From NCBI RefSeq assembly GCF_000235565.1, contig NC_017527.1, positions 2,418,001-2,482,000 of the forward strand: a stretch of DNA of 64,000 nucleotides. The letters run 5' to 3'. Each line of letters starts with the position of its first letter. The first letter of the stretch is position 1. The notes under the pieces are model-generated. The model ran no database searches and had not been told where the DNA came from. It saw only the letters and a program-made list of their open reading frames with translations. Source of the DNA: Methanothrix harundinacea 6Ac. GTDB taxonomy: Archaea; Halobacteriota; Methanosarcinia; Methanotrichales; Methanotrichaceae. The translations under genes and the position numbers were made by a program. Shown in pieces: positions 45,711-53,906 of the stretch.

Positions 45711-46442
45711 TCAGATGATCCCCTTCTCCTTCAGGGCCGTCTCGATCCGCTCAAGCCGCATATCGAAGCTCCCCTTCATGTCCGACCGCAGCCCCCGGAC
45801 CTCCCCCGTCGTCTCGTCCTGCTTGTCGAGCATCTGGTCCTGCTTATCGAGCATCTGGTCCTGCTTATCGATCATCATGTCCTGCTTGTCGAGCATCTGG
45901 TCCTGCTTGTCGAGCATCTGGTCCTGCTTGTCGAGCATCTGGTCCTGCTTATCGATCATTATGTCCTGCTTATCGAGCATCCGGTCCATCTTGGAATCGA
46001 TCCCCTTAATCGCCGCTATAGTCTCATCCTGCTTGTCGAGCATCTGGTCCTGCTTATCGAGCATCCGGTCCATCTTCTGCCCCAGATCGGAAAACCCGTG
46101 CCTGGTGACGTCTATCAGCTCCTTGAGGAGCTCGGCAGACCTGTCGAGCCTCGAGTCCGTCTCCCCCCTATCCACGAGCTTCGAGAAGTCGTCGAACTCG
46201 CCCGTGGCATCGTGCCGCTCCACCTCGACGGCCGCGACCTCGATGAGGGAGTTTTTGACCTTCAGGGCGGAGGCGAACCGGTCCAGAACCGCAGCATCTC
46301 CCTCGGCGACGACCTTCACCCTCCCGTCGGGGAGGTTTCCAACCCATCCGACGATCCCCATCTCCTGGGCCAGGGCTATGACCTTCGACCTGTAGCCGAC
46401 CTTCTGGACCCTTCCTGAGACGAGGATGACAGACCGCTCCAT
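45711..46442 (-). CDS. Acylphosphatase domain fused to a heptad-repeat coiled coil
   Basis: 243 residues. Residues 1-90 are an acylphosphatase: SGRVQKVGYR (phosphate-binding loop with catalytic Arg) and GWVGNLPDGRVKVVAEGD (catalytic Asn). Residues ~125-225 hold ten copies of a five-residue core M(L/I)DKQ in seven-residue spacing, mostly DQMLDKQ, with one interruption (DETIAAIKGIDSK). This is an almost perfectly regular coiled coil. A short helix ending RIETALKEKGII closes the protein. ATG 46442 fits the domain start. Ordinary acylphosphatases are ~90 residues, so the tail is an addition that probably oligomerises the enzyme or binds a partner. Confidence 0.85.
   Translation of the reverse strand: MERSVILVSGRVQKVGYRSKVIALAQEMGIVGWVGNLPDGRVKVVAEGDAAVLDRFASALKVKNSLIEVAAVEVERHDATGEFDDFSKLVDRGETDSRLDRSAELLKELIDVTRHGFSDLGQKMDRMLDKQDQMLDKQDETIAAIKGIDSKMDRMLDKQDIMIDKQDQMLDKQDQMLDKQDQMLDKQDMMIDKQDQMLDKQDQMLDKQDETTGEVRGLRSDMKGSFDMRLERIETALKEKGII
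45825..46075 (-). repeat. 21-bp coding tandem repeat in the acylphosphatase gene
   Basis: Units of 21 bases (ATCTGGTCCTGCTTATCGAGC on the plus strand, with small changes) encode the DQMLDKQ heptads. About ten core copies are present, with one non-repeat break near 45990-46030. Near-identical neighbouring units suggest recent expansion or gene conversion. Confidence 0.85.
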
Positions 46443-46695
46443 AGGAGGAGGTCTGGGGCTTATTTTGATATAAGTCTTCTCGTCCCCGGCGGAGACTCCT
46501 CCGGGGCCGTATCGGGGAGGAAGGGAGAAAGAGGAGGAGGAGAAGAAGAGGAAGTGGTGGAAGCCGGGGGGGAGGGGCAGGGACGGAGGGGGAGGCGGCC
46601 CGGAGCCCCGATCCATCACCAGAATTTGAAAATTAGATGAGAGCCGCCCCTACCCTTTCCGGCAGGGGCGTTGGGGTGGCGGCCGGAAAGGGCCC

Positions 46696-47982: not shown

Positions 47983-49665
47983 CTAGGCCCCCTCCCCATC
48001 CCCGGAGAAGCGGATGGATATCGCCGGGGCGTCGCCCCCGGAAGCGGCGACGAGGTCGCCGCCGCAGAGGGAGATCGACCGCTCCAGATACCTCAACTCA
48101 TCCCGGCGGAAGGGATCTCGGATCCCCCGACCCCGGCCGGCGATCCTCACCAAGACCCCCTCCCCCTCCTGGAAGGCGCCGATGGCGACCTCCTCCGCCA
48201 TCCCCGCCGCGAGCCTCTCCAGGATGTCTATGACGAGGTCGGTCAGCCGCTCGCCATCGACGACCGCCGGGGGGAGGCCCCCCGAGCCGGCGAAGGCGAC
48301 GGAGACCCTCTCGGGGAGGGGGACGTAGGAGATCCGCGCCTTCAGGGCCCGGAGCCACTCCTCCTCCGTCTCCGCCTCCAGGATCTGATCCCCGGGGCGG
48401 GGCCTCCGGATGAACCCCTCTATCGAACCCCGGAGGATCGAGGTCAGATCCTCCGCCCTCAGGCACTGAGGGGGCCGAAAGCCCCTGTAGGTCACCATAT
48501 AGTCGTTCAGAAGCCGCCCGGCCCTCCTCAGGAGGTGGTCTTCGAAGAGGTCCGCGACCCCGCCCCCATCGAAGAGCCCCTCCAGCTTTCCTACGATCCG
48601 GCCCGCCTCGTGGACTACCTCGATCTCCAAGAGCCCGCCCCCCCGGCAGCTCGAGAGCCGATCGTGCCAGCGGGAGAAGAGGTCGTCGACGGCCCCGGAG
48701 TCCACCAGCGCCTCGATCTCCCTCGCCGCCTCCCCCTCCCCCAGGTCCTCCAGGACGGAGGAGACGAGGATCAGCCTTCCAGCGATGATGGTGAAGAGCC
48801 GCTCCAGCTCCCGGAGGGCGACGGCGGAGTACTCGGCCGCCTCCCTCGCCCACCCCCCGTCGATCAGGAGGGGATCCCCCAGGGAGAGGGTGTACTGGAG
48901 GAGGCGGCAGAGGGTCTTTTTCGCCGCCCCGGCTTCCATGGGCCTCCCGTGGCCAGGACAGCATTGGAGGACCTCCCCCCCCTCCAGAAGCCAGAGGGCC
49001 CTCCGGATCGACCCGATCTGGTCGGCCCGGGACCACCCCGGGATCCCCGCCACCCCGGGGTTGGAGGCGAAGAGGAGGTCTCCGAGGAAGAGGAGCTCCC
49101 CGGCCCGGAGGCAGACGCTGTCGGGGCTGTGGCCCGGGGTGTGGTACACCTCGAGGGCGTCGCCGCCCCCCAGCTCCACCCTCTGGCGGTGGAGGACGAC
49201 CCCGTCCCCGATCCCGAAGGATGCGGTCTCGTACTCGAAGGCCGCGCCCCGCCCGAGTTCGATAAGCCTCCGGCCCGGGGCGGCGAGATCCGCCGAAGAG
49301 AGGAGCCTCACCTCGGGAGACCTGGGGGCCACCTCCCTCCCCAGGAGGCAGGAGAGGGTCATCGCCGGGTCCCCCCTCTCCAGGGAGACGGCCCCCGCCT
49401 CCTGGACCGCCACCGCCGCCCCGCCGAGCCCCTCCAAGAGATCCCCTCGGGAGAGCTCGAAGGAGTGGTCGACGTGGACGTGGGTCAGGTAGATTAGGAC
49501 CGGCCTCGCCCTCTCTTCCCAGAGCTCCCCGATCACCTCCACCAGCCGGTCCATCTGACCGTCGTCGCCCCCCGGATCGATGAGGCAGATCTGGTCCCGG
49601 GCGGATAGGACGTAAGAGTTGGAGGAGACCATATCGACCGTCCTGATGTACGGGAAGACCTCCAC
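47983..49665 (-). CDS. Metallo-beta-lactamase-fold protein with C-terminal sensor-kinase-like region
   Basis: 560 residues. Residues 1-270 are an MBL-fold domain with complete metal ligands: LTHVHVDHSF, a following His in VYHTPGHSPDS, FLGDLLF and CCPGHGRP. Residues ~290-430 are helical and dimerisation-like (ALRELERLFTIIAGRLILVS). Residues ~450-555 resemble a degenerate GHKL ATPase (DGERLTDLVIDILERLA, then GVLVRIAGRGRGIRDPF) without clear N, G1 and G2 boxes. It faces the partner-switching genes across a 240-bp spacer. Its C-terminal region could be the target or partner of the STAS protein; this is inference. Confidence 0.78.
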   Translation of the reverse strand: MEVFPYIRTVDMVSSNSYVLSARDQICLIDPGGDDGQMDRLVEVIGELWEERARPVLIYLTHVHVDHSFELSRGDLLEGLGGAAVAVQEAGAVSLERGDPAMTLSCLLGREVAPRSPEVRLLSSADLAAPGRRLIELGRGAAFEYETASFGIGDGVVLHRQRVELGGGDALEVYHTPGHSPDSVCLRAGELLFLGDLLFASNPGVAGIPGWSRADQIGSIRRALWLLEGGEVLQCCPGHGRPMEAGAAKKTLCRLLQYTLSLGDPLLIDGGWAREAAEYSAVALRELERLFTIIAGRLILVSSVLEDLGEGEAAREIEALVDSGAVDDLFSRWHDRLSSCRGGGLLEIEVVHEAGRIVGKLEGLFDGGGVADLFEDHLLRRAGRLLNDYMVTYRGFRPPQCLRAEDLTSILRGSIEGFIRRPRPGDQILEAETEEEWLRALKARISYVPLPERVSVAFAGSGGLPPAVVDGERLTDLVIDILERLAAGMAEEVAIGAFQEGEGVLVRIAGRGRGIRDPFRRDELRYLERSISLCGGDLVAASGGDAPAISIRFSGDGEGA

Positions 49666-49905: not shown

Positions 49906-50268
49906 ATGAAGATGATGCTGTCCAATAGAAGTTCGGGGGACGTGGAGATCCTCTCCCCGGGGGGGAGGCTCGACGCTCGATCCTCGGAGGAGATTCGGGT
50001 GAGGATGGAGGGGCTGATCGACGGCGGCTGCCGGAAGATGGTGGCGAACTTATCCGGGGTGGATTACATCAGCAGCTCGGGGCTCCGGGTGATGCTGGCG
50101 TCCCTGAAGAGGCTGAGGAAGGAGGGCGGCGACCTCCTCCTCGCCGGCCTCCAGCCTTACGTCCGGGAGACCTTCGAGATCGCCGGGTTCACCCAGCTCT
50201 TCGAGATATACGACCGGGAAGAGGAGGCGGTGGAGGAGTTCGGGCGGCGGGGAAGGACCCCCCGCTAG
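49906..50268 (+). CDS. STAS-domain anti-sigma-factor-antagonist-like protein (SpoIIAA/RsbV family)
   Basis: 120 residues with one STAS domain. LSPGGRLDARSSEEIR forms the first strand-helix unit, and VDYISSSGLRVMLASLKRL (residues 52-70) carries the serines at the helix start, where SpoIIAA/RsbV are phosphorylated (Ser56-Ser58 here). The C-terminal FTQLFEIYDREEEAVEEF helix is typical. It is first in a STAS/phosphatase/kinase gene set. In bacteria such a protein binds the kinase when unphosphorylated. An archaeon has no sigma factor, so the target must be something else. Confidence 0.9.
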   Translation: MKMMLSNRSSGDVEILSPGGRLDARSSEEIRVRMEGLIDGGCRKMVANLSGVDYISSSGLRVMLASLKRLRKEGGDLLLAGLQPYVRETFEIAGFTQLFEIYDREEEAVEEFGRRGRTPR

Positions 50269-50296
50269 CCCGGCCCCCGCCAGCCCCGAGGCGCGG

Positions 50297-51670
50297 ATGG
50301 ATCCGATCGTCAGCCCCCCCCTCCTCCTCCTCATCGAGAAGATCTGCGTCATCGTCGTCGCAGCCTACCTCATCACCAGGACGGAGAGCTTCACCGAGCT
50401 GATCGAGGGGAGGCTGACGAGGAAGAACCAGGCGGCTATGGCCCTGATCTTCGGCGCCTTCTCCATCTTCGGGACGGTCTCGGGGGTCGAGGTCGCCGGG
50501 GTGGTGGCGAACGTCCGGGACCTGGGGCCGGTGATGGGAGGGCTCGTCGGCGGCCCCGTCGTCGGCCTCGGGGCGGGGCTGATCGGCGGGGGGTACCGGC
50601 TCCTCCAGGGGGGGTTCACAGGCCCCGCCTGCTCCCTCGCCACCGTCCTGGTGGGGTCCCTGGCGGGGCTCGTCTACCTCGCAAACCGGCGGAGGTTCGT
50701 GGGGGTGGGGGGGGCGGTCGTCCTCACCGCCCTCTTCGAGGCCCTCCACATGCTCACCGTCCTCCTCCTCGCCGAGCCCCGGCCGGAGGCGGTGACCGTC
50801 GTCCGGGCGGCGGCCGCCCCCATGATCGTCTCCAACGCCGTCGGAGCCCTGATCTTCGCCCTGATGACGACCAACCTGATCCGCGAGCGGGAGACGGCAA
50901 AAGAGCGGGACGAGTACCTAATCGAGCTGGAGAGGAGGAGGCTGGAGCTGGAGATCGCCCGGAAGATCCAGGAGAGCTTCCTCCCGGAGACGGTCCCGGC
51001 CCTGAGGGGCTTTGAGGTGGCGGCGATCAGCCGCCCCGCCGAGGAGGTGGGGGGCGACTTCTACGACTTCGTCCCCACCCCGGGGGGGAGGATGGGGATC
51101 GCCATCGCCGACGTCTCGGGGAAGGGGGTCCCCGCCGCCCTCTTCATGGTCCTCTCCCGGGCGATGGTGAGGGCGAGCGCCTCCGGGGAGCCGACGGCGG
51201 GGGAGGTGGCGAGGAGGGCGAACGAGCTGATCTCCGCCGACGCCAACTCCGGGATGTTCGTCACCCTCTTCTTCGCCCTCCTCGACGAGGAGGCCCGGAC
51301 CCTCAGGTACGTCAACGCCGGCCACAACCCCCCCCTCCTCCTGAGGGGCGGGACCGGCGAGGTCGCCCTCCTGAAGACCCGGGGGATCGCCATGGGGGTC
51401 CTGGAGGAGGCGGAGATGGAGGAGGGGGAGGTCGAGCTTTCGGAGGGGGACGTCGTCGTCCTCTACACCGACGGGGTGACGGAGGCGACGGACGCCGCCG
51501 GGGAGCAGTTCGGGGTCGAGAGGCTCCTTCTGCTGGCGAAGGAGCACAGGAGCCTCCCGGCGGCGGCCCTCGTCGAGGAGATCGCCGGGGCTGTCCTCGC
51601 CTTCAGCGAGGGAGAGCCCCAGTTCGACGACATCACCCTGGTGGTGCTGAAGGGGGGGAGGAGGGGGTGA
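50297..51670 (+). CDS. SpoIIE/RsbU-type PP2C phosphatase with LytS-like (5TM) membrane sensor
   Basis: 457 residues. The first ~200 form a 5TMR-LYT membrane domain, with the conserved NVRDLGPVMGGLVGGP and a GAGLIGGGYRLL loop. A linker helix (ARKIQESFLPETVPALRGF) leads into a SpoIIE-type PP2C domain. Its metal-binding motifs are complete: GGDFYD, IADVSGKGVPAALFM, NAGHNPPLL, LYTDGVTEA and FDDITLVVLK. It should dephosphorylate the STAS protein in response to a ligand or envelope signal. It follows the STAS gene by 28 bases and overlaps the kinase gene (GTGA). Confidence 0.92.
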   Translation: MDPIVSPPLLLLIEKICVIVVAAYLITRTESFTELIEGRLTRKNQAAMALIFGAFSIFGTVSGVEVAGVVANVRDLGPVMGGLVGGPVVGLGAGLIGGGYRLLQGGFTGPACSLATVLVGSLAGLVYLANRRRFVGVGGAVVLTALFEALHMLTVLLLAEPRPEAVTVVRAAAAPMIVSNAVGALIFALMTTNLIRERETAKERDEYLIELERRRLELEIARKIQESFLPETVPALRGFEVAAISRPAEEVGGDFYDFVPTPGGRMGIAIADVSGKGVPAALFMVLSRAMVRASASGEPTAGEVARRANELISADANSGMFVTLFFALLDEEARTLRYVNAGHNPPLLLRGGTGEVALLKTRGIAMGVLEEAEMEEGEVELSEGDVVVLYTDGVTEATDAAGEQFGVERLLLLAKEHRSLPAAALVEEIAGAVLAFSEGEPQFDDITLVVLKGGRRG

Positions 51671-52083
51671 GGGGGAGCTTCGAGATGGCGGCGGAGAGCA
51701 GGACCGAAAGCCTCGCCGGGATAAGGGAGTTCATCCTCTCCTCGACGGAGGGGTCGGCCCTCGACCGGCGGGAGAGGTTCCGCCTGATGATGGCCGTCGA
51801 CGAGGCGGCGACGAACATCATCATGTACAGCGGCTCGGTGGGGATCAAGATCGAATGCCGGATCTATCGCGACCGGGCCGTCGTCCTCCTCCGGGACCGG
51901 GGGGTCGCCTTCAACCCCCTGGAGGCCCCGGCGCCGGAGGTGGACCGCCCCCTGGAGGAGCGGGAGGTGGGGGGGCTCGGGATCTTCTTCGTCCGGAACC
52001 TCACCGACGGGGCCGAGTACCGGCGGGAGGGGGATGAGAACCTCCTCACCCTGACGGTCCGCCACCGCGGGGGAGGGGCTTAG
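51667..52083 (+). CDS. RsbW/SpoIIAB-type serine kinase (anti-sigma-factor-like HATPase)
   Basis: 138 residues with a GHKL ATPase fold. The N box is MAVDEAATNIIMY (Asn50), the G1 box RDRGVAFNP (Asp77, Gly79) and the G2 box VGGLGIFFVRNL (Gly102-Gly105). These match active RsbW-type kinases that phosphorylate the STAS partner. The GTG start overlaps the phosphatase stop. Together with the two genes before it, it completes a partner-switching set. Confidence 0.9.
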   Translation: MRGSFEMAAESRTESLAGIREFILSSTEGSALDRRERFRLMMAVDEAATNIIMYSGSVGIKIECRIYRDRAVVLLRDRGVAFNPLEAPAPEVDRPLEEREVGGLGIFFVRNLTDGAEYRREGDENLLTLTVRHRGGGA

Positions 52084-52199: not shown

Positions 52200-53906
52200 A
52201 TGGCCAAGAGACCGCCGAACCTCACCTACGCCGTCGACGACGATCCGCCCCTCCCGGCGACCCTCCTCCTCGGACTCCAGCACGTCTTCCTCATCGCCAT
52301 AAGCCTCATCTTCCCGGTGGTGATAGTGAGGTCCATCGGCGGGAGCCCCGAGGAGGCGGAGTTCATGGTCAGCATGTCGATGCTGGCGGCGGGGGTGGGG
52401 ACGGTCCTCCACGCCCTCAACCGGCGGGGCGTCGGCTCGGGGTACCTCTGCCCCGCCCTCTGCGGACCATCCTTCTTATCCGCCTCCCTCCTGGCAGCGA
52501 ACGTCGGAGGCCTCCACCTCCTCTTCGGGATGACGGCGGTGGCCGGCTCCTTCGAGGTCCTCTTATCGAGGTTCCTCCACCGGCTCCGGGTCCTATTTCC
52601 TCCGGAGGTGACCGGCCTCGTGGTGGCGATGGTGGGGATCAGCGTCATCCCCACGGCCCTCGCGAACTTCATGGGCAGGGGCGGCGCCGACGCCGCGACC
52701 GAGATCCCCGAGCTGGCGGTGGCCCTCCTCACCCTGGGGACGATGGTGGGGATCAGCGTCTGGTCCCGGGGGAGGCTGAGGCTCTACTCAGTCCTGGTGG
52801 GGATGGCCATGGGCTACCTCGCCTCCATCCACCTTGGGATCCTCACCGCCGACCACCTCGACCTCTTCGCCGAGGCGCCCCTCGCCGCCGTACCCCACCT
52901 CGACTACTTCGGCTGGTCCTTCGACGTCGCCCTCCTCCTCCCCTTCATGGTGGCGATAACCTGCTCCTCCCTCAAGACGATCGGGGACATCACCACCTGC
53001 CAGAAGATCAACGACGCCGACTGGAAGAGGACCGACATGAAGAACGTCAGCCAGGGGATCCTCGCCGACGGCCTCTCCGCCGTCTTCGGCGGCCTCGTCG
53101 GGACGATGGGCCAGTCCACCTCCTCCAGCAACATCGGCCTCTCGATCGGGACGGGGGCGACGAGCCGGAGGATCGCCTTCGCCATCGGCGGGATCCTCGT
53201 ACTCCTGGCCTTCCTCCCCAAGCTCGCCATGGTCTTCGTGGTGATGCCGGAGCCGGTGATGGGGGCGACCCTGATATACTCCGTCAGCTTCATGATCGTC
53301 GCCGGGTTCCAGATAATAATGTCGAGGATGCTCGACGCCCGGAGGACGTTTTTGGTGGGGATACCCCTGATCATGGGCCTCTCCGTCGACGCCCTCCCCG
53401 GCCTCTACGACGGCGTCCCCCCCATCCTCGCCCCCGTCTTCAGCTCCTCCCTCTCCCTCGCCGCGGTCCTGGTCGTCCTCTTAAACCTCCTCTTCAGGAT
53501 CGGGATCTCAAAGCGGGTCCGGCTCGTCCTCCGCCCCGGGGTCGACGACGCCGACTCGATCTTCAACTTCCTGGAGAGGCAGGGGTCGGCCTGGGGGGCG
53601 AGGAGGGAGGTGATATACCGGGCGATATCCGCCACCAACGAGCTCTTCGAGGCCGTCGGCTCCGCAGGGCTCGCCGAGGGGGATATCGACCTGGAGGTCT
53701 CCTTCGACGAGTTCAACCTGGACGTCGTCGCCAGGTACCGCGGCGAGCCCCCCGTCCTGCCGTCGAGGAGGCCCGACGTGGTGGACCTCCTGGGGGAGGG
53801 GCCCTCGGCCAGCCTTGCGGCGTTCATGGTGACCAGGTACGCAAACTCCGTCCGGGTCGACACCAGAGATGGGGCATGCCGGGTCCGGCTCCACTTCGAC
53901 CACTGA
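52200..53906 (+). CDS. NCS2 xanthine/uracil permease-like protein with C-terminal GHKL-like domain
   Basis: 568 residues. Residues ~20-430 are an NCS2 (UraA/XanQ) permease with about 12-14 hydrophobic helices. CPALCGPSFLSASLLAANVG, FPPEVTGLVVAMVGISVIP and GLVGTMGQSTSSSNIGLSIG match the family's helix-8/10 motifs. Residues ~445-568 are soluble and resemble an RsbW-type ATPase: RAISATNELFEAVGS fits an N box, but the usual G1 motif is missing. Length exceeds ordinary NCS2 permeases (~430-480). It lies just after the partner-switching genes with its own TATA-like element (GGTATAAGTC, 52161-52170). The substrate is unknown. Confidence 0.82.
   Translation: MAKRPPNLTYAVDDDPPLPATLLLGLQHVFLIAISLIFPVVIVRSIGGSPEEAEFMVSMSMLAAGVGTVLHALNRRGVGSGYLCPALCGPSFLSASLLAANVGGLHLLFGMTAVAGSFEVLLSRFLHRLRVLFPPEVTGLVVAMVGISVIPTALANFMGRGGADAATEIPELAVALLTLGTMVGISVWSRGRLRLYSVLVGMAMGYLASIHLGILTADHLDLFAEAPLAAVPHLDYFGWSFDVALLLPFMVAITCSSLKTIGDITTCQKINDADWKRTDMKNVSQGILADGLSAVFGGLVGTMGQSTSSSNIGLSIGTGATSRRIAFAIGGILVLLAFLPKLAMVFVVMPEPVMGATLIYSVSFMIVAGFQIIMSRMLDARRTFLVGIPLIMGLSVDALPGLYDGVPPILAPVFSSSLSLAAVLVVLLNLLFRIGISKRVRLVLRPGVDDADSIFNFLERQGSAWGARREVIYRAISATNELFEAVGSAGLAEGDIDLEVSFDEFNLDVVARYRGEPPVLPSRRPDVVDLLGEGPSASLAAFMVTRYANSVRVDTRDGACRVRLHFDH

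Follow-up and report, generated by a model that had tools for sequence, protein, structure and literature searches.

A STAS-SpoIIE-RsbW partner-switching module in Methanothrix harundinacea flanked by two candidate outputs, an NCS2-fold permease and a metallo-beta-lactamase-fold hydrolase

The window considered here is the whole analysed stretch of 64,000 nucleotides from Methanothrix harundinacea 6Ac, and all positions without a locus label refer to it. It contains three adjacent genes on the + strand that encode, in order, a STAS protein, a phosphatase in which a 5TM-LYT membrane sensor is joined to a SpoIIE domain, and an RsbW-type kinase, with catalytic motifs intact. The first gene (49906..50268, +; homology suggests that the start could instead be 49912) specifies an RsbV/SpoIIAA-like switch protein of 120 residues, which matches Pfam STAS (1.7e-21), TIGR00377 (1.8e-23), and SpoIIAA structures. 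Alignment to SpoIIAA (1th8) places S57 (50074-50076) at the position of SpoIIAA Ser58, and the residue is kept in 30 of 30 STAS proteins of the family. Ser57 is thus the predicted phosphorylation site of the STAS protein, in line with the phosphorylatable serines noted in the preliminary description of this DNA.

The second gene (50297..51670, +) encodes a membrane phosphatase of the SpoIIE/RsbU PP2C type. Its 5TM-LYT sensor (50384-50872; Pfam 5TM-5TMR_LYT, 1.7e-44) is followed by the phosphatase domain (51080-51652; Pfam SpoIIE, 5.9e-56), and the metal motifs GGDF, DVSGKG, NAGH, TDGV, and DDIT are all found. The overlap reported earlier for the last two genes is real: the SpoIIE stop and the GTG start of the RsbW gene share 4 nt. 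This third gene (51667..52083, +) encodes a GHKL serine kinase of the RsbW/SpoIIAB type (Pfam HATPase_c_2, 2e-17), whose alignment profile matches Bacillus subtilis RsbW (6m36) at 1.5e-15. The alignment locates an N-box at 51796-51816 (E46, N50), a G1 box at 51895-51903 (D77, G79), and a G2 box at 51970-51981 (G102, G103, G105), and these residues are invariant in 11 homologues. With its domains, metal motifs, and kinase boxes all present, the trio is complete, as the preliminary description held.

The genome is closed (a main contig of 2,559,043 bp plus a second contig; completeness 99.89%), and the locus is common to relatives of the same genus. Together these observations reject a contaminant origin, which had also been argued against from the window alone. 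Nor is the trio a chance assembly, since its gene order is conserved in relatives. In the whole genome, neither a Pfam STAS domain nor a HATPase_c_2 domain was found outside the trio. A search of the genome for Sigma70_r2 gave no match, while the same search was positive in 10 bacterial genomes out of 14 controls; the initial picture of an archaeon that lacks a sigma factor for such a switch to control therefore stands. A second SpoIIE protein of the genome, a dCache-HAMP-SpoIIE protein of 665 residues (G000:C2:1233810-1234376; L072:7799-9796), has no STAS or RsbW gene found adjoining it, and SpoIIE proteins of similar length occur throughout Methanotrichaceae. Elsewhere in the window, the N-terminal part of an open reading frame on the - strand (45711-46619) looks acylphosphatase-like by eye; many nearly identical copies of a coiled-coil-type DKQDQMLDKQD repeat come after it.

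Downstream of the trio, on the same strand, lies a gene (52200..53906, +) for an NCS2-fold permease (Pfam PF00860, 1.9e-60; matches to UapA and UraA). Its C-terminal tail of 132 residues (53508-53903) adopts an RsbW-like fold by several lines of comparison. A profile-profile comparison (hhalign) with RsbW gives P = 1.9e-5, end-to-end over 115 columns, and the AlphaFold (AF2) model has a mean pLDDT of 92. In a Foldseek search, the best 23 PDB matches of the tail comprise RsbW, SpoIIAB, the mycobacterial anti-sigma-F factor, Rv1364c (an RsbU-RsbW protein), and a Leptospira response-regulator entry. A PDB sequence search with the tail found nothing, so that the likeness emerges only from profile-profile and structure comparison. 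In 25 of 25 homologues, the tail keeps the RsbW general base E46, and G79 is kept as well. In the same 25, N50 is replaced by Ala, Ser, or Thr, D77 by Tyr, and the G2 glycines are gone. Because the N-box Asn, the G1 Asp, and the G2 glycines are lost though the fold is kept, alignment and model identify the tail as a conserved pseudo-kinase with the RsbW fold. It also has an invariant motif of its own (WGAR, FDE, YxG, HFxH).

The transporter portion is itself unusual. Residue K259 occupies the position of the TM8 Glu (UapA E356/UraA E241), which is described as absolutely conserved and, in UapA, irreplaceable (PMC3405029). Lys is present at this position in 46 of 46 tail-bearing NCS2 proteins by motif scan and in 18 of 18 by alignment. 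In addition, the Q408 position is Ser or Ala in the tail-bearing proteins, while Q85 and H86 are kept in 18 of 18. Since Lys replaces a Glu needed by purine and uracil carriers, the label "xanthine permease" is doubtful, and the substrate is likely to be something other than a standard nucleobase. In two assemblies, L075 (G198) and L083, the gene for the permease and its tail is split by an apparent frameshift, possibly an assembly error or decay.

On the other side, upstream of the trio and divergent from it, is a gene (47983..49665, -) for a metallo-beta-lactamase-fold (MBL) hydrolase (Pfam Lactamase_B, 4.8e-12). Its start codon is uncertain, as homologues are longer at the N-terminus. The MBL domain (about 48892-49665) has the metal ligands HxHxDH/H/D/H, which are invariant in 19 homologues. 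The C-terminal half (47986-48891) is covered by no Pfam model. A structure model of this half resembles a DHp-CA histidine-kinase unit, with Foldseek matches to histidine kinases, at a mean pLDDT of 63, which is low confidence; its alignment reveals no visible N, G1, or G2 motif. Homology to RsbW was also considered for this tail and was set aside, as the hhalign profile comparison was not significant. We tentatively regard it as a degenerate histidine-kinase-like domain. Degenerate kinase-like C-termini had been noticed on both neighbours. The one on the permease is borne out as an RsbW fold, and for the hydrolase the low-confidence model tentatively gives a histidine-kinase-like unit.

The preliminary description proposed a search for such triads and for conservation of their neighbours. 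Modules of STAS, SpoIIE, and RsbW are widespread in Methanotrichaceae and Methanomicrobiales, so the trio is not unique to one assembly, and both the MBL and NCS2 genes are conserved with them. SpoIIE is present in 45 of 50 Methanotrichaceae genomes. A gene for NCS2 with the tail is downstream of STAS-SpoIIE in five genera of this family (g1, g4, g7, g8, and g11). The RsbW gene lies between SpoIIE and NCS2 in g1 and g11, with a convergent NCS2 gene in one g1 genome (G197); in g4, g7, and g8 no RsbW gene is found at that place, and RsbW is encoded elsewhere in those genomes. In one case (L062) the SpoIIE and NCS2 genes overlap. Within the class, 12 of 15 full-length tail loci are no more than 2.5 kb from SpoIIE, and SpoIIE is present in every one of the 18 tail-bearing genomes of the phylum sample, versus 115 of 393 overall (Fisher 9e-11, a value that ignores shared ancestry). 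There are exceptions to the linkage. One g1 genome (G201) has the trio and MBL and no NCS2, and several tail-bearing NCS2 genes of Methanomicrobiales stand alone, unlinked to a switch. A TFB-like gene, recognized from its translation near one NCS2 gene (L080), was considered as a transcription-factor neighbour and rejected, because it is not beside STAS/SpoIIE.

When 84,980 species were scanned, the tail turned up in Methanophagales, Nitrospirota, Deltaproteobacteria, Ignavibacteriota, Bacteroidota, and Armatimonadota as well. NCS2 genes with the tail are beside STAS/SpoIIE genes in Methanotrichaceae, in some Methanomicrobiales, and in the last four of these bacterial groups. There the order is NCS2-(SpoIIE)-STAS, with NCS2 followed directly by SpoIIE and/or STAS, and the phosphatases carry 5TM-LYT or dCache/HAMP sensors; one of the three deltaproteobacterial loci (L091) has no SpoIIE or STAS after NCS2. 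At the Nitrospirota locus, STAS and RsbW are about 2.3 kb upstream of NCS2. A protein tree, whose deep forks are unresolved, contains two separate Methanotrichaceae clades, with Methanophagales nested inside one of them. This topology indicates a history that includes transfer or an old duplication.

The hydrolase is also linked to the switch: across methanogens its gene lies next to STAS, overlaps it, or is joined with it. In the phylum sample, an MBL relative at or near full length occurs in 45 of 393 genomes, and all 45 have SpoIIE. The distance between the two genes is at most 5 kb in 18 of 46 loci and at most 20 kb in 28 of 46; other MBL genes include some with no SpoIIE anywhere close. 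In one group the MBL gene adjoins or overlaps the STAS gene. In three genomes MBL and STAS are fused into one protein, 694-696 residues long, whose SSAG motif is intact (one is L167:5442-7526); of the hints that the switch acts on the hydrolase, this fusion is the strongest single one. In Methanotrichaceae genus g8, MBL goes with modules whose SpoIIE carries PAS or CHASE4, and NCS2 goes with the 5TM-LYT module. Such segregation would be anticipated if the two proteins were outputs of separate switches.

Other genes accompany related modules. At L129:1255-3690, an 811-residue protein that carries STAS at its N-terminus together with a TCAD9 (ternary complex associated) domain is encoded between a gene for NCS2 with the tail and a SpoIIE/RsbW pair. 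In Methanomicrobiales, the modules often contain a third gene, which adjoins RsbW and encodes STAS plus about 320 residues without a Pfam match (L148:7946-9253, with equivalents in L150-L157 and L162); it is possibly another output. In one genome of the phylum, a STAS/RsbW/SpoIIE module (L132:4911-7324) is followed directly by one gene for an MFS transporter and one for a LuxE-type acyl-protein synthetase.

The trio closely resembles the Bacillus SpoIIAA/SpoIIAB/SpoIIE and RsbV/RsbW/RsbU systems, which likewise combine a STAS protein with a conserved Ser, a GHKL kinase with all boxes, and a SpoIIE/PP2C phosphatase in adjacent genes. Unlike those switches, it resides in a genome without a sigma factor match and is accompanied by a transporter and a hydrolase, both conserved as neighbours and both with tails that we read as pseudo-kinases. 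The triad as such is already known from archaea: SpoIIAA/SpoIIAB/SpoIIE-like genes were described in methanogenic archaea in 2009, there only for Methanomicrobiales, and their target was declared undeterminable (PMC2686161). Here, by contrast, the triad is widespread in Methanotrichaceae, and the conserved neighbours supply candidate targets. Fusions of 5TMR to SpoIIE, with the same sensor domain joined to a PPM/SpoIIE phosphatase, were described in 2024 as prevalent in archaea, and the available portion of that paper names neither their partners nor their outputs (PMC11109136). The same class of membrane sensor is present in BtsS, a pyruvate sensor with a 5TMR-LYT receptor domain (PMC10653868, PMC5431176). 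Purely by analogy, the signal sensed by the phosphatase may be a small metabolite.

Partner switches with other kinds of target do exist, and SiaABCD is a non-sigma STAS switch that uses Ser phosphorylation. Phosphorylation of a Ser in a STAS or STAS-like protein also serves a non-sigma target in SypE/SypA (PMC8256260) and CapK/CapS (PMC13373217). The targets in these three systems include a repressor and a cyclase; a transporter with a pseudo-RsbW tail is not among them. That SLC26 carriers bear STAS domains was already recognized by Aravind and Koonin 2000, as cited in PMC8256260. In the SLC26/SulP anion carriers, too, a cytosolic domain from an anti-sigma system is attached to a carrier of 7+7 helices (PMC8256260). 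The arrangement here is the mirror image, for the carrier is of the NCS2/SLC23 type and bears the kinase-side, RsbW-like partner rather than STAS. A search of the open-access literature found no earlier account of an NCS2 carrier that bears an RsbW-like domain or is linked to STAS-SpoIIE, nor any of MBL with STAS and SpoIIE. What is new is therefore the candidate targets: the conserved transporter and hydrolase as outputs.

We consider it fairly probable, from the gene architecture and linkage, that the module has a post-translational, non-transcriptional output, in which the STAS protein docks on the tails of NCS2 and MBL and so gates the transporter and the hydrolase. By homology, the RsbW-type kinase would use ATP to phosphorylate Ser57 of STAS. 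A stimulus at the membrane sensor would lead the 5TM-LYT SpoIIE phosphatase to take the phosphate off again. Unphosphorylated STAS would then leave RsbW and dock on the pseudo-kinase tails, on that of NCS2 with its RsbW fold and probably also on that of MBL, which is degenerate and histidine-kinase-like. Docked STAS would in turn gate transport and hydrolysis. Lacking the residues that bind Mg-ATP, the NCS2 tail should read the state of STAS without phosphorylating it. Relatives with no RsbW gene in the transporter module would be served by a kinase from another module of the same genome.

An unlikely alternative keeps the same components and reverses the direction of the signal. The NCS2 protein would be an input, a transceptor that uses its pseudo-RsbW tail to hold or free STAS depending on whether substrate is bound, with the output elsewhere, for example in the MBL hydrolase or in an unlinked protein. 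The gene linkage and the pseudo-kinase tail also fit this proposal, and the loss of the Glu that is irreplaceable in UapA (PMC3405029) could mean that transport has been lost. On the other hand, Q85 and H86, other conserved positions of the transporter fold, are kept in 18 of 18 proteins, and the switch already owns a membrane sensor, 5TM-LYT here and Cache, PAS, or CHASE4 types in relatives. Quite improbable, in our view, is an output at the level of transcription, with STAS or RsbW acting on a TFB, TBP, or some other DNA-binding protein whose gene is at another place in the genome. Transcription is the classical outcome of such modules (PMC7522486), and CapK/CapS provides a STAS switch on a DNA-binding repressor (PMC13373217). 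Yet Sigma70_r2 is not found in this genome, and at the inspected loci it is NCS2 and MBL that are conserved beside the modules, with no conserved transcription factor. The preliminary description had named a TFB, an enzyme, or a transporter as the output; gene context favours the latter two, and nothing points to a TFB.

It is also conceivable, although we think it very improbable, that the tails are structural or vestigial with no part in partner switching, and that their linkage to the switch reflects operon inheritance or hitch-hiking of neighbours. SLC26 carriers depend on their STAS domain for stability and function (PMC8256260), so a cytosolic domain may serve some purpose other than that of a switch receiver, and some tail-bearing NCS2 genes are unlinked. 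Against this stand the recurrence of the linkage, with differing gene orders, in several genera and four bacterial groups, the existence of MBL-STAS fusions, and the invariant motif peculiar to the NCS2 tail.

Returning to the post-translational output that we favour, a broader proposal can be made, more tentatively and at somewhat less than even confidence. The tail-bearing proteins may form a class of transporters, shared by archaea and bacteria, that have the NCS2/SLC23 fold and are gated through serine phosphorylation, with a fused RsbW-like pseudo-kinase as the receiver of free STAS. Given the Lys in place of Glu and the 5TM-LYT or Cache sensors of the linked phosphatases, the substrate may be a small anion, for example a carboxylate, and not a nucleobase.

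The anti-sigma-like kinases of archaea have lacked a plausible target since 2009, as archaea do without sigma factors. The conserved pairing described here names two concrete candidate targets for an archaeal partner switch. It suggests that partner switches directly control transporters and enzymes, in archaea and in several bacterial groups, and it would give regulatory meaning to the old link between the STAS domain and membrane carriers.
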